DNA of 64,000 nucleotides from Sphingosinicella sp. CPCC 101087 (GTDB lineage Bacteria > Pseudomonadota > Alphaproteobacteria > Sphingomonadales > Sphingomonadaceae), in contig NZ_SBFF01000005.1 in the NCBI RefSeq assembly GCF_004151485.1, positions 219,001-283,000 on the forward strand, in the 5' to 3' direction. How positions within the stretch are numbered: the stretch's first letter is position 1; each line of letters opens with the position of its first letter. A model generated the notes under the pieces. It was not told the DNA's origin and did no database searches. It saw nothing but the letters and a program-made list of their open reading frames with translations. Of this stretch, positions 5,408-50,774 are shown piece after piece. Position numbers and translations under genes: made by a program.

Positions 5408-5948
5408 GGCTACTCCGATTGATCGGCCAAGATCGGCGCTTGGCCGTTGCGGCGCAAGATCCCGGTAGCTGGGCTGCTGCGCCTCATGGGCACAGTGGGT
5501 CGGTAGTGGACGCTCATAAAGGGCTGTCTGCGCATCCGCTTCTCATCCCCAGCCTGGAAGCAGACCGTCGGCTACCGACCACTGCCAGACATCCAAGACA
5601 GGCGAAATTCTGCCGTCAGAGCCGCGGCAACGAGATTTCCCAATGATCTGAGTGTCCATTTGTCGCCTGTGGGGCACCACTGCCAGGACTCGCATTGAGA
5701 AGCCAATTTCCGGCACCTGCGCAGACCGTTTCCGACGCACTGCGTTCGGCCAGGGGAAGCGACGGCCGCGCGCAATGGTCGATACGGTCCGTCGAGCGCC
5801 CGACGTGCCGCTCGTGCGCCGTGCGGGGCGGCAAGGCCGTCACGAGCGCGGGCCCAGGCGCGGAGCTTGAACGCGCTTGGGCAACTGCATGAACGAAGGT
5901 CGGGGCGACCGCCGGCAGGGACATTTGCATCATCATGCAGGCGCTGCA
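5408..5948. other. 541-bp gap without an intact gene
   Basis: No open frame here has a convincing product. On the minus strand, 5641-5700 reads ...WCPTGDKWTLRSLGN. This resembles the N-terminal GDKWTL motif of HxlR-family regulators but is not followed by the rest of the domain, so it is at best a remnant. The 3' edge carries the 16-bp tandem repeat described separately. The gap and the lower-GC kinase gene beside it look like a small accessory patch. Confidence 0.5.
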
Positions 5949-5962
5949 TCATGCAGGCGCTG
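5931..5962. repeat. Tandem duplication of a 16-bp unit
   Basis: CATCATGCAGGCGCTG occurs twice back to back (5931-5946 and 5947-5962), followed by a third degenerate partial copy (GTGATGCAG). The repeat spans the stop codon of the GlxA/AraC gene, so the terminal residues HHAAPA and the stop lie within repeat units. Confidence 0.85.
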
Positions 5963-6923
5963 CGTGATGCAGCTCGCGGAACAATATCGGGGAGACACCA
6001 AATCGGCGCTCGAAAGCTTTCGAGAGCCGCGCAGGGGACAGGCCGACCTGAAGGGCGATCGCCTTGAGCGACAAACCCTGCGAAAGTAGCAGCCGAGCGG
6101 CATCGAGCCGGAGCGTCTCAACGAATCGGGCGGGTGTCACCCCGGTCGCGTCGACGAACTTACGATAGAAGCTTCGCTCGCTGAGGCCGGCCCGCGCCGC
6201 GAGGCTGGGGACATCCAAAGCCGCGCTCAAGTTCTCGTGGGCCCAATCGATCAATTCGGCGAACGGGCTGTCTCCTCGCGACTGGGCCGTCAGCAGGGAG
6301 CTGAACTGCGACTGGTAGCCGGGCCGCCGGGCATAAAGGACCAATCGCTTGGCGGCCTGGCTCACGATTGCGGGTCCGACATCCTCGCACGCCATCGCCA
6401 AGGCCATGTCGATTCCGGCCGTTACGCCAGCCGACGTCCATAGCTTTCCATCATTCACATAAAGCGCTTCGGAATCGACCTGTACCGACGGGTAGAGCCT
6501 CGCGAGCCGGGCGCATGCGGCCCAGTGCGTCGCAGCACGCTTTCCGTCCAGAAGTCCGAGCGCCGCCAGCAGAAATGCGCCGGAGCAAACCGACCCGACC
6601 CGCTCGGTCGAGCGCGCGCAGTCGAGGATCCAGCGACTCAGCCGAGGCTCGTCCATCGCAGCCCGTACGTTCCCGGCCTCGGCGCCTGCGATCAGAAGCG
6701 TACCGATCCGGGCCGGGGCTGCCTCCAAGGCGATGCTATGCAGAGCCACCCCACTGGAGCTGCCGATCGGCCCTCCGCTCACAGAGAGCACATTCAGAGC
6801 GTAAAAGGGTTTGCTGCCGGCTTGGCCAAGAACGTGATTGGCAGCATCGAACACGGCAATCGGGCCGGTGGCGTCGAGCAACTCGAAGCCAGGATAGACC
6901 AACAAAGCAACCGTGTGCGTCAT
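5949..6923 (-). CDS. GlxA-type AraC-family regulator (DJ-1/PfpI + AraC HTH)
   Basis: The N-terminal half is a DJ-1/PfpI-like domain: VALLVYPGFELLDATGPIAVF at the start, then RVGSVCSGAFLLAALGLLDGKRAATHW, including the nucleophile-elbow Cys. The C-terminal 100 residues carry two AraC helix-turn-helices (LAARAGLSERSFYRKF and IALQVGLSPARLSKAF). This architecture defines GlxA/FtrA/CdhR-type regulators, many of which sense nitrogenous or aldehyde metabolites. I prefer ATG 6923 (324 residues), which begins at the conserved MTHTVALL. An upstream GTG at 6959 is open, but it overlaps a candidate operator. It is divergent from the membrane-protein gene at 7032. Confidence 0.85.
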   Translation of the reverse strand: MTHTVALLVYPGFELLDATGPIAVFDAANHVLGQAGSKPFYALNVLSVSGGPIGSSSGVALHSIALEAAPARIGTLLIAGAEAGNVRAAMDEPRLSRWILDCARSTERVGSVCSGAFLLAALGLLDGKRAATHWAACARLARLYPSVQVDSEALYVNDGKLWTSAGVTAGIDMALAMACEDVGPAIVSQAAKRLVLYARRPGYQSQFSSLLTAQSRGDSPFAELIDWAHENLSAALDVPSLAARAGLSERSFYRKFVDATGVTPARFVETLRLDAARLLLSQGLSLKAIALQVGLSPARLSKAFERRFGVSPILFRELHHAAPA

Positions 6924-7814: not shown

Positions 7815-9017
7815 ATGCGGCGCGTTCTTCCCCTCGCGATCCTCGTCCTGGCGGCTTGCCAGGCGTCGCCGATCGGGGTCGCCCGCCCGCCGCTGCCCGC
7901 CGGTGCCACTTATGCCTGGGTCACCTTCGATGCCGCCCGACTGGGGGACGGCGAGGCGGCGGGCCTGGCCGACCGCGCCAGCGGGCGGCAGGTTCGCGTC
8001 GAGGATCCGGTGCGGGTGGCCTCCATATCGAAGCTGGTCGTGGCGCTCGGCGTGATGCGGCTGGTGGAGCAGGGCCGTATCGATCTCGACGCCGACGTGT
8101 CGCCCTCGCTCGGCTGGACGCTCCGCAACCCGGCCTATCCCGACGTGCCGATAACGCTGCGAATGCTGCTTTCGCATCGTTCCAGCCTGCAGGATGACGG
8201 CGATGCTTATGTTATCCCGCTCGGCCGGACGGTGCGCGGCGCGGTTTCCGATCCCGCCGCCTTCGACCGCGCCCATCCGCCGGGAAGTCATTTCCGTTAC
8301 GCCAACCTCAACTTCCCGGTCATCGCCTCGGTGCTGGAGAAAGTGACGGGCGAGCGGTTCGATCGACTGATGCACCGGCTGGTCATGGACCCGCTGGGAC
8401 TCGACGCCTGCTTCAACTGGACCATGTGCAGCGACGGCAAGATCGCGCGCGCCGTGACCCTCTACCGCCCCGACGGATCGGTTGCCCTGGACGGGCTCCG
8501 GGGACGGCGGCCCGATTGCCCGGTCTTTCGCGACGGCGCCGGCTGCGATCTCGACGGCTACGCGCTCGGCGCCAATGGCGCTCTGTTCTCGCCTCAGGGA
8601 GGGTTTCGCGCCTCGGTGCTCGACCTGGCGGTGATCGGGCAGCTCCTGCTCAACCGCGGGCGGCACCGGGGCCGGCCTTTCCTGAGCGAGCAGAACATCG
8701 CGGCGATCCTGGGCCCGCTCTGGACCTATGACGGCGCGAACGGCGACACGAGCGAGGGATTCTACTGCGCCTACGGCCTAGCGACGCAAAGCCTGCCGGT
8801 CAGGGTGGCGGGCTGCGACGACGACCTGTTCGGCGACGCCCGGCCAGCCGTCGGTCATGCCGGCGACGCCTATAATCTGAGGTCGGGACTGTGGATCGAC
8901 CCTGAGCGCAAAGTCGGCATCGCCTATTTCGCCGCCAACAACCCGGCGGATCCGCCACGCGGCCGATCGGCCTATCGCGCCGTCGAGGAATGGCTCGCGT
9001 CCAGGATCGGCGACTAA
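7815..9017 (+). CDS. Serine hydrolase lipoprotein, beta-lactamase/class C-like
   Basis: The 400-residue product starts with a lipoprotein signal (LAILVLAAC, lipobox Cys near residue 16). It then has a class C beta-lactamase-like fold: SISK with catalytic Ser70 and Lys73, RYANLNF as the Y-x-N motif, and GHAGDAY as the H-x-G equivalent of KTG. Such proteins are peptidases, esterases or penicillin-binding relatives rather than proven beta-lactamases. The ATG at 7815 has AGAGG upstream; the frame is open back to 7710. Several Cys residues in the middle (CFNWTMC, DCPVF, GAGC) suggest disulfides in an outer-membrane-anchored periplasmic enzyme. Confidence 0.85.
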   Translation: MRRVLPLAILVLAACQASPIGVARPPLPAGATYAWVTFDAARLGDGEAAGLADRASGRQVRVEDPVRVASISKLVVALGVMRLVEQGRIDLDADVSPSLGWTLRNPAYPDVPITLRMLLSHRSSLQDDGDAYVIPLGRTVRGAVSDPAAFDRAHPPGSHFRYANLNFPVIASVLEKVTGERFDRLMHRLVMDPLGLDACFNWTMCSDGKIARAVTLYRPDGSVALDGLRGRRPDCPVFRDGAGCDLDGYALGANGALFSPQGGFRASVLDLAVIGQLLLNRGRHRGRPFLSEQNIAAILGPLWTYDGANGDTSEGFYCAYGLATQSLPVRVAGCDDDLFGDARPAVGHAGDAYNLRSGLWIDPERKVGIAYFAANNPADPPRGRSAYRAVEEWLASRIGD

Positions 9018-35671: not shown

Positions 35672-37201
35672 GTGAGAGTATCAGTATTGGCAGCGCTGCT
35701 GCTTTCCGTTGCCGCGTGCGGCAGTGTCGGTGGCGGCGGCGATGGCGGCGAGGGCGTGGCCGCAGTGCAGCCGAGCCGGGTGACCGAGTCGGATCTTCGC
35801 GCCGCGATTTCCGATCCACGCCTGACCCGATTTTACGAGGCGCGCGCGTGGCAACCGGCCTGGAACCAGCAAAGCGCGGCCGCGCTCGTCGATGCGATCG
35901 GCGCGGCGGGCCGCCACGCCCTCGATCCGAACCAATTTCTCGCGTCGGCGGCTCGGTCCGAGGCGCCGGCGGCGCGCGAGGCGGGGTTGAGCCTCGCCGC
36001 CCTGACCTATGCCGAGGCGTTGGCGCGCGGACGGACCGACCCGAAACGGCTTCGTCCCGATTATACCATGGATCGACCGGATCCCGACCTTGCCGCCGGG
36101 CTCAACCAGGCGCTGGAGCAGGGCAATGTCGGCGAGTGGCTGGAAGGCCTCGCACCCCAGGACGAGGAATATCGCTTGCTCTCCGAAACCTATGTCGCGG
36201 CGGCGCGCCAGGCGGCGGGGGAGGGGCTCGAACAGATCCCGGCCGGGGACACGATCAGCGCCGGCGGTTCCGATCCGCGTGTGCCGGCGATCGCCACGGC
36301 CTTGCGGCGGGGCGGCTACCTGCCCGCTCAGCCCGAGGGACAGGCACAACCCGGGCCGGAATATGGCGGCGAGCTGGTCGAAGCCGTGCGCCGGCTGCAG
36401 GACGATCACGGCCTCGAACCCTCCGGCGAGATCGACGAGGCCACGCTCGAGGCGCTCAATCGCAGCGCGTTCGACCGAGCGCGAATTCTGGCGGTCAATC
36501 TAGAGCGTCGGCGCTGGCTACCGCGCCAAGCCTCGGCCTTGCGGATCGACGTCAACATTCCTGCCGCCACGCTCCAATATTGGCGCGACGGACAGCTCGT
36601 CGACCAACGTCGGGTGATCGTCGGCCAACCGGGCAACGAGACCCCCCAGCTCGCCTCCCCGATTTTCCGCCTGGTGGCCAATCCGACCTGGACCGTGCCG
36701 GAATCGATCGCCGAGGAAGAGATATTGCCCAAGGGTGCGTCCTATCTCAGGCGCAACAACATGACGATGCGCGACGGGATGATCGTCCAGGAGCCCGGGC
36801 CAACCAATTCGCTTGGCGAGGTCAAATTCGACATGCGCAACGACCTGGCCATCTATCTCCATGACACGCCGGCCAAGACGCTGTTCGAACAGGATCGCCG
36901 GCAGTTGAGCCATGGCTGCGTGCGCGTACACGACGCGCTCGGCTTCGCGGCGATGCTCGCCGAACAGGAGGGTGTGAGCGCCGACTGGCGCAAGGCGGTG
37001 GCCACCGGCGAGGAGACCTTCGTGCCGCTGCCGCGCGAGATTCCGGTGCGGCTGCTCTATCACAGCGCGTTCGTGGAAGGCGGCCGGATCCGCTTCCGCC
37101 CCGACCCGTACGGGTTCGACGAGGATGTTGCGGAGGCGCTCGGGCTGCCGGCGCGGCCGCGGCCGCAGCCCGCCGAGCATATCGGCGACGTCGGACCCTG
37201 A
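35672..37201 (+). CDS. L,D-transpeptidase, YcbB/LdtD-like lipoprotein
   Basis: The 509-residue protein begins with a lipobox (LLLSVAACG). It has a YcbB-type N-terminal region, then a peptidoglycan-binding segment (LVEAVRRLQDDHGLEPSGEIDEATLEALN). The YkuD catalytic domain has the motif SHGCVRVHD with nucleophile Cys416 and the upstream His in YLHDTPAKTLFEQD. It would make 3-3 peptidoglycan cross-links or attach proteins. The start is GTG 35672, five bases after GGAG. The gene stands alone and diverges from the PilZ gene. Confidence 0.92.
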   Translation: MRVSVLAALLLSVAACGSVGGGGDGGEGVAAVQPSRVTESDLRAAISDPRLTRFYEARAWQPAWNQQSAAALVDAIGAAGRHALDPNQFLASAARSEAPAAREAGLSLAALTYAEALARGRTDPKRLRPDYTMDRPDPDLAAGLNQALEQGNVGEWLEGLAPQDEEYRLLSETYVAAARQAAGEGLEQIPAGDTISAGGSDPRVPAIATALRRGGYLPAQPEGQAQPGPEYGGELVEAVRRLQDDHGLEPSGEIDEATLEALNRSAFDRARILAVNLERRRWLPRQASALRIDVNIPAATLQYWRDGQLVDQRRVIVGQPGNETPQLASPIFRLVANPTWTVPESIAEEEILPKGASYLRRNNMTMRDGMIVQEPGPTNSLGEVKFDMRNDLAIYLHDTPAKTLFEQDRRQLSHGCVRVHDALGFAAMLAEQEGVSADWRKAVATGEETFVPLPREIPVRLLYHSAFVEGGRIRFRPDPYGFDEDVAEALGLPARPRPQPAEHIGDVGP

Positions 37202-41934: not shown

Positions 41935-43218
41935 CTAGCCGCGATACCAGTCTTTCGAGAGGCGGGTTGCGGCGGCGAAGTAGAGGATGGCGCTGAGCAG
42001 GTAGAAAGCGAGACCGTAGAGGATCGAGTAGCGCAGCGATTCGGCGCCGTAGGTCGAGGCGATCCGGTCCGACATGAAGCCGAGGATGTAGATTCCGAAG
42101 CCGATCCCGATCAGGTTGTTGATGAAGAGGAAGCTGGCGCTCGCGGTCGCCCGCATGTTCGGCGGGACGATGTGCTGAACGGCGGCGATCACGGGGCCGA
42201 GCCAGGCCAGAGCGAGCATCTGCCCGACGGCAAACAGGATCCAGGCGACGCCGAGCGACGGCGCCAGCACGCCCACGGCGAAGACCGGCGCGGCGACGAG
42301 GAAGGAGACGGCCGGAATCAAGGCGTAGCTCGCCGGGCGGTCCGGCCCCGTGCGGTCGGCGAACCAGCCGCCGAGCCACGTCCCCGCCATCCCGCCGACC
42401 AGCACGATCGAGCCGTAGAACCAGCCGACCTCCGACAGGTCGAGCCCGAAGCTGCGGCTGAAGAAGGAAGGCAGCCAGAAGATCAGGCCATAGCCCATGA
42501 TCGAGCCGGAGGCGGCGCCGAACGACAGCAGCCAGAAGCTCGGCAGGGTCGCGAGCCGCTTCGCGACGACGGGGAAGGGCGGGGCGGCCTCGCTCGCTTT
42601 GCCGTCGGCCGTGTCGAATCCTCCGCGCACCGGCTCGCGGATCCCGAGCCTGACCAGCAGCGCCGCCGGAAGGCCGGCCAGTCCGACGATGATGAAGGCC
42701 CAGCGCCAGTCGAGATAATCGCCGATCCAGCCGCCGAAGAAGACGCCCATCGCCGAACCCAGCGGAATTCCAAGGGAGAAGAATGCCAGCGCCCGACCCC
42801 GCTTCGCCTTCGGAAAATAGTCCGAGATGAGGGCGTAAGAGGGGGCCACGCCCCCCGCCTCGCCGACGCCGACGCCCATTCGGGCGAGGAAAAGCTGCCA
42901 GAAATTCTGCGCGAGCCCGCACGCCGCGGTGAACAGGCTCCACAGCGCTACCGAGAAAGCGATGATCTTGACCCGGCTCCTGCGGTCGGCCAGCCAGGCG
43001 ATCGGGATGGCGAGGCCGCTGTAGAAGAGCGCGAAGGCGATCCCGCCCATCAGGCCGAGCTGCCGGTCGGTGAGGCCCAGCTCGGCCTGGATCGGCACCG
43101 CCAGGACACCGATGATCTGGCGGTCGATGAAGTTGAAGATGTAGGCGAGGAGCAGGATGAGGAGGACGCGCCCGCCGCCCGGGTTCGCCGTCACGTTCCC
43201 GCTCCCCTGGTTCGTCAC
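41935..43218 (-). CDS. MFS transporter, Spinster-like
   Basis: The 427-residue carrier has 12 predicted helices. The opening LLLAYIFNFIDRQIIGVLAVPIQAELGLTDRQLGLMGG is typical of the Spinster-type MFS proteins frequent in sphingomonad catabolic clusters. ARMGVGVGEAGGVAPSYALISDYFPKAKRGRALA is the family's central loop. Probable role: proton-coupled import of a breakdown product or substrate across the inner membrane. The start is GTG 43218, only 3 bp after the TonB receptor stop. It is therefore third in the hydrolase-TonB receptor-MFS operon. Confidence 0.92.
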   Translation of the reverse strand: MTNQGSGNVTANPGGGRVLLILLLAYIFNFIDRQIIGVLAVPIQAELGLTDRQLGLMGGIAFALFYSGLAIPIAWLADRRSRVKIIAFSVALWSLFTAACGLAQNFWQLFLARMGVGVGEAGGVAPSYALISDYFPKAKRGRALAFFSLGIPLGSAMGVFFGGWIGDYLDWRWAFIIVGLAGLPAALLVRLGIREPVRGGFDTADGKASEAAPPFPVVAKRLATLPSFWLLSFGAASGSIMGYGLIFWLPSFFSRSFGLDLSEVGWFYGSIVLVGGMAGTWLGGWFADRTGPDRPASYALIPAVSFLVAAPVFAVGVLAPSLGVAWILFAVGQMLALAWLGPVIAAVQHIVPPNMRATASASFLFINNLIGIGFGIYILGFMSDRIASTYGAESLRYSILYGLAFYLLSAILYFAAATRLSKDWYRG

Positions 43219-43221
43219 GCC

Positions 43222-45471
43222 CTAGAACCTCACTTCGCCGGTCAGGGTGACCGTTCGCGGCGGGCCATAGAAGGCGACGATCGAGTTGCCAAACAGGGCG
43301 CCCGGAAAGTTGTAGCCGCCGATGCGATAGCGCTCGTCGGCGAGGTTCCGGCCGACCAGCGAGACCTGGTAGCGCTCGTTCGCCGAGGTCCAAACCAGGG
43401 CCGCGTCGACCAGCGTGTAGCCGTCCTCGTCGAGGAGGGCGTTGGGGACCTCGAACTGCTGATATTCGGACCGGTAGGAGACCGACGGCGTGAAGCTGAT
43501 CGTTCCCGCTCCGCCCAGGTCGTGGCGCCAGGTCGGCGAGACGGCGAAGGAGAATTCAGGCGTGTTCTGGAAGTCCCAGATGTCCGAGACGTCGACCTCC
43601 TGCTGCGTCACCGGATCGAAGGTGATCACGCGCTTGAAGTCCGCATTGATGTAGCCCAGCATCGCCGAGACCGAGAAATTGTCGGTGACGTTCGCCCGCG
43701 CCTCCGCCTCAAAGCCGAAGATCCGCGAATCGGCAGCATTGTTGACGAAGCTCGCCACGTTCGCGCCGACCGGCACCTGAACGGTGACCTGCTGGTCGCG
43801 ATAGTCGGAGTAGAAGCCGGCCAGGCTGAAATAGAGGGCTCGGTCCAGGGCATAGGCCTTCAGGCCGATTTCGTAGGCGTCGACCGTCTCCGGATCGTAG
43901 CCGTTCACCGTTTCGGGTGTGAGCGATGCGTCGCCGCGCATGTCGAATCCGCCGGATTTATAGCCGCGCGAGTAAGAAGCGTAGACGGTCACGTCGGGCG
44001 TCGGCAGGTAGGAGATGCTCGCGCGGGGCGTGAACTCGGCATCGTTGCGGGTGTTGGTATAGTCGGTGTTGAGCACCACCGGCACCGCTGCCTCGTTTCC
44101 GAAGAAGGGGCTGCGCAGACCGGCAAAGGTCTGACGCAGGACGGTCCCGCGACGGCGATCGTCGGTGTAGCGGCCGCCGAGAGAGACCCGCCACTGGTCG
44201 GAAAGGTTGTAGCTGAAATCGGCGAAAGCGGCGAGGCTGCGGGTATCGACGCTGCCGGCCGTGAAGATGGTGAGTCCGGCATTGCCGAGCACCGTATCGA
44301 AGGCGCCGGCGGCATGGCCGTCCAGATAATAGACGCCGGCGACCCCCTGGAGCCGATCGCCTTCGTAGACGATCTGGAATTCCTGGCTGACCTGGTCGTC
44401 CTCGTAGAAGGCCGGAATGTCGAGGATCGGCTGCGGCGTGCCGTCGAAATCGATATTCCCTTCCGTCTCGCCGTCGCGATAGGCGCTGATCGATTTCAAG
44501 GTGACCTGGTCGGTCACGTTCCATTCCGCCGTGAGCGAGATGCCGCGGGTCTCGACCTCGTTGGGATCGCCCGCGCCGGCGCGCGTGTCATATTCGTCCG
44601 CCGGCGGCTCGAAATCGGGGAGCCCGGCATTGCCGACGACCCGATGGCCGTGGCGGGCGTTGGACCTGTCGCGGATCCAGTCGCCGGCGAGCCGGAAGAA
44701 CAGGTTGGAGGTCGGCGCGAACTCGATGGAAGCGCGGGCGGCAAGCACGTTCTTGTCGTAATGCTCGTTGCCGGTGTTGAGGTTTTCGCCGAAACCGTCG
44801 CGCTGCAGCCAGGCGACGGCGCCGCCGACGCTGAGCGTATCGCTGACCGGCGCGGTGATCGAGCCTACCAGGTCGATCTGGTCGTAGGTGCCGTAAGCGG
44901 CGCGCACGCGTCCGCCGAACTCGTTGCCGAGGCGGCGGGTGACATATTTGACCGCTCCGCCGATCGTGTTGCGGCCGTAGAGCGTACCCTGCGGGCCGCG
45001 CAGCACCTCGATCCGCTCGACGTCGAAAATGTCGAGAACGGCAGCCTGGGGACGGGCAACGTAGACGTCGTCGAGATAGAGGCCGACGCCGGGCTCGAAG
45101 CCCCAGAGGGGGTCCTGCTGGCCGACGCCGCGGATGAAGCCGATCAGGGTGGAGTTGGAGCCGCGGGCGATCTGGAGCGTGGTGTTTGGCGTGCTCTGCA
45201 TCACCGCGGTGAGGTCGACCGCGCCCTGATCCTCGAGCGTCTCGCCGTCCAGCGAAGTGACGGAGATCGGGACGTCCTGGAGGCTTTCTGCGCGACGCCG
45301 GGCGGTGACGAGGATCTCCTCCCCGCCGCCCTCCTCGATTCCGGCGGCATTGGCGGCCGCGACCTGTTCCTCGTCGCTCACCTGGGCGTGGAGCGGCGCA
45401 GCGGCGGCAGCGAAGGCGACGACAGCGCCCCCGACCTTCAGGCCGTTCAGCAGACGTGACGATGTGGACAT
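43222..45471 (-). CDS. TonB-dependent outer-membrane receptor
   Basis: The 749-residue receptor has a signal peptide (VVAFAAAAAPLHAQ). The TonB-box-like EEILVTARRRAESLQDVPISVTSL leads into the plug (LRGPQGTLYGRNTIGGAVKYVT) and a 22-strand barrel ending in the aromatic C-terminus (GPPRTVTLTGEVRF). It is of the sphingomonad FecA/IroN-like catabolic type rather than a clear siderophore receptor. GGGAGGAAGCC precedes the ATG at 45471. The hydrolase gene lies 11 bp upstream and the MFS gene 3 bp downstream. Confidence 0.93.
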   Translation of the reverse strand: MSTSSRLLNGLKVGGAVVAFAAAAAPLHAQVSDEEQVAAANAAGIEEGGGEEILVTARRRAESLQDVPISVTSLDGETLEDQGAVDLTAVMQSTPNTTLQIARGSNSTLIGFIRGVGQQDPLWGFEPGVGLYLDDVYVARPQAAVLDIFDVERIEVLRGPQGTLYGRNTIGGAVKYVTRRLGNEFGGRVRAAYGTYDQIDLVGSITAPVSDTLSVGGAVAWLQRDGFGENLNTGNEHYDKNVLAARASIEFAPTSNLFFRLAGDWIRDRSNARHGHRVVGNAGLPDFEPPADEYDTRAGAGDPNEVETRGISLTAEWNVTDQVTLKSISAYRDGETEGNIDFDGTPQPILDIPAFYEDDQVSQEFQIVYEGDRLQGVAGVYYLDGHAAGAFDTVLGNAGLTIFTAGSVDTRSLAAFADFSYNLSDQWRVSLGGRYTDDRRRGTVLRQTFAGLRSPFFGNEAAVPVVLNTDYTNTRNDAEFTPRASISYLPTPDVTVYASYSRGYKSGGFDMRGDASLTPETVNGYDPETVDAYEIGLKAYALDRALYFSLAGFYSDYRDQQVTVQVPVGANVASFVNNAADSRIFGFEAEARANVTDNFSVSAMLGYINADFKRVITFDPVTQQEVDVSDIWDFQNTPEFSFAVSPTWRHDLGGAGTISFTPSVSYRSEYQQFEVPNALLDEDGYTLVDAALVWTSANERYQVSLVGRNLADERYRIGGYNFPGALFGNSIVAFYGPPRTVTLTGEVRF

Positions 45472-45482
45472 GGCTTCCTCCC

Positions 45483-46313
45483 TCAGATGTTCGTGGCTTG
45501 CGTGGTGCGGAGGTTCTCCGCAAAGGCTCGCAGCGTGCGGTTGAACAGGTCCGGCTCCTCCAGATGCGGAGCATGGCCGGAGCGATCGAAGCGGACGGCC
45601 CGGGCCTCCGGAAGAGCCGCGACGAGATGGTCCGCGGTGTCCTCTCCATAGAGGCTGGAGCGGGCACCGTGGGCGATCAGTGTGGGATGGCGGATCCCGC
45701 GCAGCAGCGCGCGGACGTCCTGACCGACCAGCGACTCCCAGAGCGCGGCAATGGTAGCCGGATCGTTTCGCGCGAATTCGGCGCTCGCATAGGCGGCCAG
45801 CTCCCGGGTTCCCTCGGCGCTCGGATCGGCGAAGATGGCCTGCCCCGCGGCGGCGGCGAAGCTGGCGAAGTCGGCGCGGATCGCGGCCGTGCGCGCGGCG
45901 CACGCCTCGGCGGAGAGGCCGAGGTCCCATTCCTCGTCGTTGAGCACGCGCGCGGTCATGTCGACCACCACCGCACCGGCGAAGCGGCCGGCGGCGGCGC
46001 CGGCGAGGACGTGCCAGAGTATGGTGGCGCCGAGCGACCAGCCGAGGCCGATCGTTCCGTGGAGATCGAGCGCCTCGACCAGGCCGGAGACATCGGCGGC
46101 GATCCGCTCGATGGTTGGCCGCTCGCCGGGACGCGCCGAGGCGCCATGGCCGCGAAGGTCGATGCGGATCAGGCGGAAATGGTCCGCGAGCGCGGTCTGT
46201 TCACGAAAGAAGCCGCCATGGGCCATGAGCCCGTGCAGCAGCACGAGCGGGATGCCGCGGCCTTCGTCGCGATAGCAGATACGCGCCCCGTCCGATGCGA
46301 TGAACGACCTCAA
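45483..46313 (-). CDS. Alpha/beta hydrolase
   Basis: The 276-residue enzyme has the fold landmarks LVLLHGLMAHGGFFREQ (oxyanion), DLRGHGASARPG, the nucleophile elbow GLGWSLGATILW and the catalytic His in DRSGHAPHLEEP. It resembles esterases or C-C hydrolases of aromatic catabolism. The frame is open to 46502, with ATGs at 46373 and 46394. I choose TTG 46313 because GGGAGAGG sits just before it, homologues start near RSFIASDGARI, and the upstream ATGs fall inside the palindromic operator. It is first gene of the operon feeding the TonB receptor and MFS genes. Confidence 0.85.
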   Translation of the reverse strand: MRSFIASDGARICYRDEGRGIPLVLLHGLMAHGGFFREQTALADHFRLIRIDLRGHGASARPGERPTIERIAADVSGLVEALDLHGTIGLGWSLGATILWHVLAGAAAGRFAGAVVVDMTARVLNDEEWDLGLSAEACAARTAAIRADFASFAAAAGQAIFADPSAEGTRELAAYASAEFARNDPATIAALWESLVGQDVRALLRGIRHPTLIAHGARSSLYGEDTADHLVAALPEARAVRFDRSGHAPHLEEPDLFNRTLRAFAENLRTTQATNI

Positions 46314-46368
46314 ACCCTCTCCCCCGCCGCGCCTTTCGGTTCGGGCGCCGACCCGCCGTCCCTTGCCT

Positions 46369-46397
46369 AACATGAAAGTTGAGTCAATGTTCATGTT
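46369..46397. promoter_or_regulatory. 29-bp near-perfect palindrome, likely TetR operator
   Basis: AACATGAA-AG-TTGA-G-TCAA-TG-TTCATGTT is concentric around base 46383, and 12 of 14 base pairs match. It is AT-rich in a GC-rich region. It lies between the TTG start of the hydrolase operon and the TetR gene at 46553. Size, symmetry and location fit a TetR dimer-of-dimers site controlling both directions. Binding by the neighbouring TetR is inference. Confidence 0.75.
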
Positions 46398-46552
46398 GAT
46401 TGCCCGACGACATTGATCGGCCGGTGTTGCGGCCCTGCAGCAGCTAGGGGGATGGCCAGGCGGGCGCTTGGCCTTCGCCTTGCGCAAGCCGAACCGGCGC
46501 ACGCTTGCGCAAAGCTGAAAGCCGGTTCAGTTTCTATGCCGGGAGGAAATGC

Positions 46553-47170
46553 ATGAACGATCTCGGCCAGGCGGCCGTCTCGGCCGAAAAGGCGCCGCGC
46601 ACCGAGCGAGGGCGCCGGACCGTGCGCAAGCTGCTCGAGGCGGCTGCGCAGGAGTTTGGCGAGCGGGGTTTCCACGAAGCGGCGATCACCGGGATAACCG
46701 CCCGCGCCGGTGTCGCGCTCGGCACCTTCTACACCTATTTCGGGAGCAAGGAGGAACTGTTCCGGGCCTTGGTCCGCGACATGAGCGACGCGGTGCGTGC
46801 CCATGTCGCCGAAGCCGTGGCCGGAGCGCCCGACCGCCTGGCGGCGGAGCGGATCGGCCTCGCCGCCTTCATTTCCTTCGTGCGGCGGCATCCCGAGCTG
46901 TACCGGATCATCGAGGAGGCGCAGTTCGTCGCCGAGGACGTCTACCGCGAGCATTATCTGACCTTCGTCGACGGCTATGGCCGCAACCTGGCCGCTGCGC
47001 GCGAACGAGGCGAGATTTCAGATGGCCCGGACGAGCTTCGCGCCTGGGCGCTGATCGGCATGAGCGTGTTTCTGGGCATGCGCTACGGAATCTGGAAGCC
47101 CGACCATACGCCCGAGCAGGTCGCCGACATGGCGATCGATCTCGTTTCCGAGGGCCTGAGGAAGAGATGA
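46553..47170 (+). CDS. TetR/AcrR-family transcriptional regulator
   Basis: The 205-residue protein has the TetR HTH (RRTVRKLLEAAAQEFGERGFHEAAITGITARAGVALGTFYTYFGSKEELFRALV) and an all-helical ligand domain (IGLAAFISFVRRHPELYRIIEEAQFVAEDVYREHYLTF). GGGAGGAAA lies just before the ATG at 46553. It sits between the palindrome and the acyl-CoA ligase gene and faces the hydrolase operon. It most likely represses both until an acyl-CoA or acid ligand appears. The ligand is unknown. Confidence 0.92.
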   Translation: MNDLGQAAVSAEKAPRTERGRRTVRKLLEAAAQEFGERGFHEAAITGITARAGVALGTFYTYFGSKEELFRALVRDMSDAVRAHVAEAVAGAPDRLAAERIGLAAFISFVRRHPELYRIIEEAQFVAEDVYREHYLTFVDGYGRNLAAARERGEISDGPDELRAWALIGMSVFLGMRYGIWKPDHTPEQVADMAIDLVSEGLRKR

Positions 47171-47222: not shown

Positions 47223-48788
47223 ATGACCGACGATCTTCCCGATCTGCTCGCCAAGCGGGCGGAACTGAGCCCGGGCAAGGTGGCGCTCGAGGAGTTGGGG
47301 TCGGGGCGGTCGCGCACCTATGCCGAGCTCGACGAGCGGGCCGGGCGCGTGGCAACGCTGATGGCCGCCCGCGGCGTCGGCAAGGGCGACCGGGTCGCTT
47401 TGCTCTGCCGAAACCGGATCGAGTTTTTCGAGCTGCTGTTCGGCTGTGCCCGGCTGGGAGCGGTGCTGGTTCCGCTGAACTGGCGCATGCCCCCGGCGGA
47501 GCTCGACGGCCTGATCGCCGACGCCGAGCCCCGGATTCTGGTCCATGGCGCGAGCGACGCGCAGACGGCGGCCCGGCTCTCCGATCCGCTGCCGCGGATC
47601 GGGCTGGACGAGGACTACGAACGGCTCATCGCGGCGGCATCGCCGGGCGGGCACCGGACGCGCTGGCCGGCGCGGTCCACCTGGTATCTCATCTACACGT
47701 CGGGAACGACCGGAAAGCCGAAGGGGGTGATCTACACCTACCGCATGGCTCTCGCCAATTACGTCAATATCGGATCGTGCATCGACCTCAGATCGACGGA
47801 CCGCACCGTCTGCTTCCTGCCGCTCTTCCATACCGCCGGAATCAACCTGCACGCGCTTCCGGTGCTCATTGCCGGCGGGAAGGTGCGCCTGCTCGAGACC
47901 TTCGACGCGGAAGCGCTGGTGGCGCTGATCGAGGCGCGCGAGGTCGACGCCCTGTTCGCCGTGCCCACCGTCTATTCGGCGCTGCTCGACCATCCCCGCT
48001 TCCCTGCTGCGCCGCTCGACTCGGTTCGGCACTGGGGCTGCGGCGGCGCACCGCTTCCGAACGCCCTGGTCGAGCGCTATCGCGACCTGGGGATCAGGGT
48101 ATGCAACGGCATGGGGATGACCGAGACAGGCCCCACCGCCTTCCTGCTCGACCCCGCCGACGCCTGGGACCGGATCGGGTCAGTGGGCAAGCCGCAACTC
48201 CTGTGCAGCGTCCGCATCGTCGACGCGCAGGGAGATGACGTGCCGGACGGCGAGGTCGGCGACCTCCTGTTCTCGGGGCCCGGCGTCACCCCGGGCTATT
48301 GGCGCAACGAAGCGGCGACCCGCGCCGCCTTCACCCCGGACGGCTGGCTGCGCTCGGGCGATCTCGCCCGGCGCGACGCCGACGGCTTCTATCATGTCGC
48401 CGGCCGCCGCAAGGAGATGTTCATCTCCGGCGGCGAGAACGTCTATCCGATCGAGGTGGAGAATGTGCTCGCCGCCCATCCAGCGGTGGCCGACGCCGCC
48501 GTGATCGCCGCGGCCGACCCGAAATGGGGCGAGGTCGGCCGCGCGTTCGTCCAGCTCGCGCGCGGCGGGCGGACCGATGCGGTCGAGCTCGCCGCCTTCT
48601 GCCGCGAGCGGCTGGCGCCCTACAAGGTCCCGCGCCGGTTCGACTTCGTCGAGGATTTCCCGCGCACATCCGCCGGCAAGATCCAGAAGCATCTGCTGGG
48701 ACAGGAGACGGCCGAAGGCGGCGGCCGCGGAGAGCCGGTGCCCGGCCGGACCGATATGCCCAGCCCGGCCCAGGCCTCGTCACGTTGA
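47223..48788 (+). CDS. AMP-forming acyl-CoA ligase
   Basis: The 521-residue enzyme has the AMP-binding P-loop YTSGTTGKPKG starting at Tyr158. GMGMTETGPTAF is the A5-like region, then comes DGWLRSGDLARRDADGFYHVAGRRKEMFISGGENVYPIEVE, and the late Lys lies in RTSAGKIQKHLL. This is the long-chain/aryl CoA ligase superfamily. It would activate a carboxylic acid with ATP and CoA; the chain type cannot be told from sequence. It is 52 bp downstream of the TetR gene and is probably the second target of the palindrome. Confidence 0.92.
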   Translation: MTDDLPDLLAKRAELSPGKVALEELGSGRSRTYAELDERAGRVATLMAARGVGKGDRVALLCRNRIEFFELLFGCARLGAVLVPLNWRMPPAELDGLIADAEPRILVHGASDAQTAARLSDPLPRIGLDEDYERLIAAASPGGHRTRWPARSTWYLIYTSGTTGKPKGVIYTYRMALANYVNIGSCIDLRSTDRTVCFLPLFHTAGINLHALPVLIAGGKVRLLETFDAEALVALIEAREVDALFAVPTVYSALLDHPRFPAAPLDSVRHWGCGGAPLPNALVERYRDLGIRVCNGMGMTETGPTAFLLDPADAWDRIGSVGKPQLLCSVRIVDAQGDDVPDGEVGDLLFSGPGVTPGYWRNEAATRAAFTPDGWLRSGDLARRDADGFYHVAGRRKEMFISGGENVYPIEVENVLAAHPAVADAAVIAAADPKWGEVGRAFVQLARGGRTDAVELAAFCRERLAPYKVPRRFDFVEDFPRTSAGKIQKHLLGQETAEGGGRGEPVPGRTDMPSPAQASSR

Positions 48789-50736: not shown

Positions 50737-50774
50737 ACGGGCGGCGATAGATCATCGCCGCCCGTTCTTTTTCT
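50737..50774 (+). terminator. Rho-independent terminator of rpsU
   Basis: A-CGGGCGGCGAT / ATCGCCGCCCG-T forms a perfect 12-bp stem with a 5-nt loop (AGATC), followed directly by TTCTTTTTCT. It lies 34 bp after the rpsU stop and 10 bp before the FKBP start. Confidence 0.92.

Follow-up and report, generated by a model that had tools for sequence, protein, structure and literature searches.

The locus raises the question of whether the 29-bp palindrome AACATGAAAGTTGAGTCAATGTTCATGTT (O1) is an operator of the TetR-family regulator encoded beside it and, if so, which other genes would share that control. O1 lies in a 64,000-nucleotide stretch of DNA, referred to here as the window, with the plus-strand gene tetR (product P0001) on one side and three closely spaced minus-strand genes on the other, as a preliminary description had located it. 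That description proposed regulation by the adjacent TetR protein. Sequence comparison supports this interpretation and adds a predicted second operator (O2), a probable two-unit anatomy of O1, a predicted regulon, and a link to the archaeal regulator FadR_Sa. O1 and O2 are very probably operators of P0001 with the regulon set out below, and the palindrome, isolated at first, becomes part of a small regulon whose predicted targets can be named.

The palindrome and its neighboring genes

A direct count reproduced the coordinates of O1, its center at 46383, and the 12 of 14 symmetric pairs reported earlier, and the noted AT richness was likewise borne out (31% GC in O1 versus 67% in the 64-kb window). 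As bare symmetry, O1 is weakly beyond chance: five 29-mers of the window, O1 included, show 12 or more of 14 pairs in symmetry, versus 0 to 3 (mean, 0.9) in each of 20 dinucleotide shuffles of the window. The others lie at 5944–5972, 8153–8181, 35943–35971, and 50737–50765. A genome-wide search for the 29-mer had been set beforehand as a check. The 4.70-Mb genome that contains the window has a single copy of the full 29-mer, and no second copy of the degenerate form was found there at up to three mismatches; at this tolerance, the contrary case named earlier, in which the palindrome recurs in many unrelated intergenic regions, was not seen in this genome.

The hydrolase, TonB-dependent receptor (TBDR), and MFS transporter genes nearly abut on the minus strand to the left of O1 (Table 1). 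Their close spacing suggests that they form one transcript, in line with the three-gene operon of the preliminary description. The hydrolase gene probably starts at TTG 46313, which is preceded by GGGGGAGAGGG and lies 55 bp from O1, an arrangement found alike in locus L001 of Sphingosinicella terrae. Because this TTG with its GGGGGAGAGGG is favored, the upstream in-frame ATGs are unlikely starts, as had been claimed, although their position within the palindrome, given earlier as the reason, does not exclude them by itself. On the other side of O1, the product of the gene that follows tetR resembles fatty-acid coenzyme A (CoA) ligases. The pentamer CTTGC is found immediately to the left of both O1 (46362–46366) and O2 (46504–46508), likewise in several relatives, and might serve as a −35-like element oriented toward tetR.

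Table 1. Genes and predicted operator sites around O1 (positions in the window)
Feature	Position	Strand	Basis
MFS transporter	41935..43218	-	PF07690, 183 bits
TonB-dependent receptor (TBDR)	43222..45471	-	PF00593 and PF07715
Alpha/beta hydrolase, probable TTG start 46313	45483..46313	-	PF00561, 71 bits; start predicted
O1, predicted double operator before the hydrolase-TBDR-MFS genes	46369..46397		12/14 pairs; motif conservation; unique in the genome at up to 3 mismatches
O1 unit A, 22 bp, core TGA-N8-TCA	46369..46390		2 mismatches to unit consensus
O1 unit B, 22 bp, core TGA-N8-TCA	46376..46397		1 mismatch to unit consensus
O2, predicted single operator	46512..46533		Exact unit; ends 19 bp before the tetR ATG
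tetR, P0001, 205 aa, FadR_Sa-like TetR-family regulator	46553..47170	+	PF00440, 55 bits (cut-off, 24); FadR_Sa, E = 9.2e-32; fold search
Acyl-CoA ligase (AMP-binding)	47223..48788	+	PF00501, 302 bits; 3' of tetR in hydrolase-type loci

Conservation of the sites and probable two-unit anatomy of O1

Relatives of P0001 were confirmed in 151 stretches, the best 80 of which were taken as loci and, together with the window's own locus, gave a set of 81. Within this set (own plus the best 80 of 151), an O1-type motif scoring above 12 bits was present no more than 400 bp from the tetR start in 78 of 81 loci and absent near tetR in L002, L005, and L006; the match in L003 sits at the O2 position. Likewise, 78 of the 81 loci have a TBDR homologue on the opposite strand. 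The hydrolase gene is found in 16, and the ligase gene comes after tetR in the hydrolase-type loci. A matrix made from 27 distinct sites of other loci recovered a site upstream of tetR in 15/15 of the hydrolase-type loci tested, with none of 200 shuffles per region scoring as high as the real regions; left out of this test were L002 (the 16th hydrolase-type locus, which lacks the site), L003, L005, L006, and L061.

As a conserved element, O1 is therefore strongly beyond chance. By symmetry alone, a window of this kind should contain about one such 29-mer, which is the point in favor of reading O1 as a chance palindrome, an RNA hairpin, or a terminator. With conservation above all shuffles, and with no terminator-like site found in a scan of positions 46200 to 46650, we consider this reading extremely improbable. 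The scan also found no promoter.

The conserved bases point to a composite structure. Across 67 distinct O1-type sites, the invariant positions include G6, G13, C17, and C24 of the 29-mer, which belong to two TGA-N8-TCA cores, the second shifted by 7 bp relative to the first. A simple unit is 22 bp long, with the consensus AANNTGAANNNNNNTTCANNTT, and two such units at this offset span the full site (22 + 7 = 29). An exact unit, overlooked in the preliminary description, forms O2, and a unit occupies the equivalent position before tetR in same-genus relatives too. Both G/C pairs, each with a spacing of 11, are invariant in 67/67 distinct O1-type sites, which were collected with a seed pattern that contained those G/C bases and tolerated 3 mismatches. 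At 22 sites of the second type, upstream of a CoA-transferase gene (scoA; see below), the G and C of the unit are present in 22/22, and the second pair is complete in 2/22 on the left and 3/22 on the right. Because the second G/C pair is invariant in O1-type sites and rarely complete at scoA, O1 looks double, and O2 and the scoA sites look single, to judge from these sequences.

O1 could instead be a single long operator, with one dimer placed centrally on the 29-bp dyad. The 12/14 symmetry is indeed about 46383, and neither of the 22-bp units of O1 matches the consensus perfectly. A single long operator is nonetheless unlikely: both tetR and scoA have solitary 22-bp units, and the difference in the G/C pairs between O1-type and scoA sites, read with the content of the seed in mind, also argues against it. 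Occupation of O1 by two dimers is the likely alternative.

In the genome that contains the window, two units are exact, O2 and one at C1:121239–121260. Units with one mismatch occur at four more places, O1 unit B among them. Two of these were rejected as targets: C1:114076 lacks the core G, and C8:22056 has no clear gene behind it. Weak matches mean little, because up to two mismatches yield 26 places in this genome versus 9 for a reversed-pattern control.

Predicted regulon and its distribution among relatives

The predicted regulon extends outside the window to CoA-transferase and 3-hydroxybutyrate dehydrogenase genes. The exact unit at C1:121239 lies 56 bp before a gene for CoA-transferase subunit A, whose product matches TIGR02429 with 230 bits (cut-off, 128), and at C40:160015–160036 a one-mismatch unit extends over the start codon of a gene for 3-hydroxybutyrate dehydrogenase (bdh; product, TIGR01963, 374 bits versus a cut-off of 307), the start codon itself supplying part of the match. 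TIGR02429 spans both ScoA (3-oxoacid) and PcaI (3-oxoadipate) proteins; we infer the name scoA for the CoA-transferase gene because the dehydrogenase gene is also among the targets. The breadth of that model would equally accommodate an aromatic pathway with a PcaI-like CoA-transferase for 3-oxoadipate and a PcaD-like hydrolase, and the top NCBIfam matches of the hydrolase are PcaD models. Their scores of 92 to 94 bits fall far under the cut-offs of 256 to 390, and a TBDR and a dehydrogenase target are not known to be part of the PcaI/PcaD pathway, which leaves the aromatic pathway a minor and quite improbable alternative.

The co-occurrence of site and regulator was analyzed in 60 genomes, comprising the window's own, 25 of the same genus, 10 of the same family, and 24 of the same order. 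Exact units were present in 30/60 genomes and tetR in 30/60. Any exact site was found in 25/30 genomes with tetR versus 5/30 without; for sites located at a regulon gene, the counts were 25/30 and 0/30. Fisher tests of this co-occurrence take no account of shared ancestry. The loci of sites outside tetR-bearing genomes were queried with the named regulon proteins, L131 and the loci of genome G011 without the dehydrogenase tblastn. The tetR-bearing genomes among the 60 that lack an exact unit are G019, G026, G034, G035, and G047; in G026, tetR is preceded by a unit with one mismatch, and the best unit in the 7-kb tetR region of G019 has 4 mismatches. The reversed-pattern control matched in 4/60 genomes and in 0/26 of the same genus.

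Together with the motif at 78 of the 81 tetR loci, this co-occurrence supports O1 as a predicted operator of the adjacent TetR protein. A different regulator might read the motif, given that P0001 matches six other proteins of its own genome with E values of 1e-6 to 1e-10. That the site co-occurs with tetR, and precedes tetR itself across genera, makes such a regulator very unlikely. On this comparative evidence, we hold with high confidence that P0001 would bind the sites.

The 26 same-genus genomes, which are not independent of one another, contain 40 exact sites in 22 genomes. Sixteen of the sites are at scoA, 13 at tetR, 1 at a relocated hydrolase operon, 1 at bdh, and 9 elsewhere, all of the last in G011. 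A scoA site with up to two mismatches lies 53 to 61 bp before the start in 21/22 same-genus tetR-bearing genomes that have the gene. The scoA gene of G018 lacks such a site, G021 gives no match for the gene, and no site at this tolerance was found at scoA in the three same-genus genomes without tetR (0/3; G008, G010, and G016). At bdh, a unit with at most one mismatch overlapping the start codon occurs in G000, G005, and G018 only, versus at least 4 mismatches in the other bdh rows; the bdh upstream regions of L271 and L278, which lack an initial start codon, are not soundly comparable. The scoA/bdh comparison omits L253 (a second CoA-transferase copy in G005, 64% identical) and L276 (bdh of G004, matching from residue 51 only). 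A start-overlapping unit at bdh was seen at L174 and L138.

Two same-genus genomes depart from the usual arrangement. In G009, ∼620 kb separate the hydrolase-TBDR-MFS genes from tetR, and these genes still have units, which are in tandem and overlapping at L162:3984–4022; one is an exact match, and the other has a single mismatch. This genome is a natural experiment for the site staying with the uptake genes. G011 has ten exact units (L164 to L173), one at tetR and nine elsewhere, outside the known regulon genes. The extra sites were considered as copies of one repeat, an explanation that was rejected because their flanks differ; they possibly reflect an expansion of the regulon. At L165 and L173, the sites are near genes for another type of MFS transporter.

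Beyond the genus, a unit search that allowed TGAR, run on 30 of the genomes that supplied the 80 loci, matched in 22/30 genomes versus 3/30 for the reversed control. Sites at scoA outside the genus were found in three Nitrospirillum genomes, a Hyphomonadaceae metagenome-assembled genome (MAG), and G085. A relaxed examination of scoA (30 loci in 29 genomes, leaving out 10 weaker gene matches without a locus) added G062, G068, and G082, with G060 doubtful; the other 20 of the 29 genomes, Sphingopyxis included, had no scoA site with up to two mismatches. In five Sphingopyxis genomes, the second site precedes an MFS gene whose product is 45 to 48% identical to that of the window. The sites in G009, Nitrospirillum, Sphingopyxis, and the others indicate that the predicted operator tends to remain with uptake and CoA-transferase genes despite changed gene order.

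The regulator, a proposed circuit, and known systems

P0001 has a TetR_N helix-turn-helix domain, and its structural model (pLDDT, 92.2) has nine helices in an all-helical TetR-type fold; TetR-family structures fill the matches listed in a fold search with this model. The best solved relative by sequence is FadR_Sa, aligned over residues 13 to 198, followed by a next match at E = 2.1e-12. FadR_Sa chains also occupy ranks 1 to 7 of the fold search, with TM scores of 0.83 to 0.85 to the best three, and are followed by other fatty-acid regulators, including Bacillus FadR and FasR. P0001 and FadR_Sa share 56 of 177 aligned residues. Gly57, Tyr60, and Tyr62, equivalent to the DNA-contacting Gly48, Tyr51, and Tyr53 of FadR_Sa, are invariant in 81/81 homologues (own plus the best 80 of 151). 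In the same set, position 46, equivalent to the dimer-dimer contact Asn37, is S, T, or A in 80/81 and N in 1, and position 56, equivalent to Tyr47, is L, I, or M. The NCBIfam models for FasR, FadR, and PsrA score P0001 at 54, 39, and 35 bits, far under their cut-offs of 330, 200, and 300, and an ScbR-like name was rejected (NF041196, 65 bits versus a cut-off of 150).

In the available portions of its description (PMC6449355), FadR_Sa of Sulfolobus acidocaldarius (PDB 6EL2 and 6EN8) is an acyl-CoA-responsive archaeal repressor of a lipase and beta-oxidation gene cluster. The region between its gene and a divergently oriented esterase gene contains two sites. Some of its operators take one dimer and others two, the second dimer being explained by a G and a C spaced 11 positions apart. 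By analogy with this solved repressor, P0001 probably represses rather than activates, and O2 would fit, with 19 bp between its end and the tetR ATG. Activation, at scoA at least, would be suggested by the scoA unit, whose end directly precedes a conserved CTTGA, potentially a −35 element; we regard it as unlikely against the repressor analogy and the place of O2.

On the best reading, P0001 would be a FadR-like repressor that governs the uptake of esters and the use of ketone bodies. As a bacterial relative of FadR_Sa, P0001 would bind as one dimer per 22-bp AANNTGAANNNNNNTTCANNTT unit with its TGA-N8-TCA core, so that O2 and the scoA site, with one unit each, would take one dimer, and O1, with two units 7 bp apart before the hydrolase-TBDR-MFS genes, would take two. 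Ligand-free P0001 would repress tetR with the acyl-CoA ligase gene, the uptake genes, and the scoA-like gene, as well as the 3-hydroxybutyrate dehydrogenase gene in its own species and two relatives. An acyl-CoA derived from the imported ester would then release P0001; we lean toward an acyl-CoA as the inducer.

The substrate is the less certain part. The joint targets, namely, the hydrolase, TBDR, MFS, ligase, dehydrogenase, and CoA-transferase genes, are the sole basis for proposing a 3-hydroxybutyrate ester or oligomer, and an ester of 3-hydroxybutyrate or acetoacetate is put forward tentatively. The main rival is that P0001 is a general fatty-acyl-CoA sensor and the substrate an ordinary lipid ester, to which we give somewhat under an even chance. 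FadR_Sa and other long-chain acyl-CoA regulators head the fold search, the ligase is similar to fatty-acid CoA ligases, and the lipase and beta-oxidation targets described for FadR_Sa (PMC6449355, in part) point the same way. The further predicted targets of P0001 are instead a CoA-transferase and a 3-hydroxybutyrate dehydrogenase, and no beta-oxidation gene was recognized at the sites examined. A more speculative proposal, doubtful as a whole, is that a FadR_Sa-like regulator runs, from single- and double-dimer operators, an entire outer-membrane-to-acetyl-CoA route for 3-hydroxybutyrate esters or oligomers. The steps would be TonB-dependent import, hydrolysis, inner-membrane transport, activation, 3-hydroxybutyrate dehydrogenase, and 3-oxoacid CoA-transferase. 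If true, this would be a TBDR uptake route for the breakdown products of PHB, under a type of regulator common to an archaeon and Proteobacteria.

The proposed circuit is testable and not exotic. It hints at a function, ester or ketone-body use, for the TBDR found beside the regulator in 78 of the 81 loci (own plus the best 80 of 151). Among the matches listed in a search of full-text literature, with subscription papers and preprints outside its scope, no earlier description of such a TetR circuit was recognized. PheR was considered as a parallel for a TetR regulator beside a TBDR and rejected, being an IclR-family protein according to the accessible part of its source (PMC13273656).

Among known systems, the bacterial regulators FadR, FasR, PsrA, and FadP, the last listed as beta-proteobacterial in the part of PMC5343134 that was available, resemble P0001 in fold, but the NCBIfam models of FasR, FadR, and PsrA match it far below cut-off. 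The operators of QacR have two overlapping inverted repeats, as cited in the accessible text of PMC6449355, and overlapping inverted repeats are present in O1 too, where they are known from sequence. The 7-bp offset is that of O1, with QacR's own offset outside the comparison. Dimer-of-dimers operators of the QacR type are bound on opposite faces, and QacR differs in ligand class as well. FadR_Sa differs in being archaeal, in Asn37 and Tyr47, which are not conserved in the relatives of P0001, and in its targets, which in the portions of its description at hand are lipases and beta-oxidation genes, whereas those predicted for P0001 are TBDR, MFS, CoA-transferase, and dehydrogenase genes. It is nevertheless alike in the retained equivalents of Gly48, Tyr51, and Tyr53 and, as far as that description extends, in the divergent arrangement with two intergenic sites and in the 11-position G/C spacing, a comparison of spacing and not of motif letters. 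P0001 and its predicted sites would offer a bacterial test case for the one-dimer/two-dimer switch of FadR_Sa.
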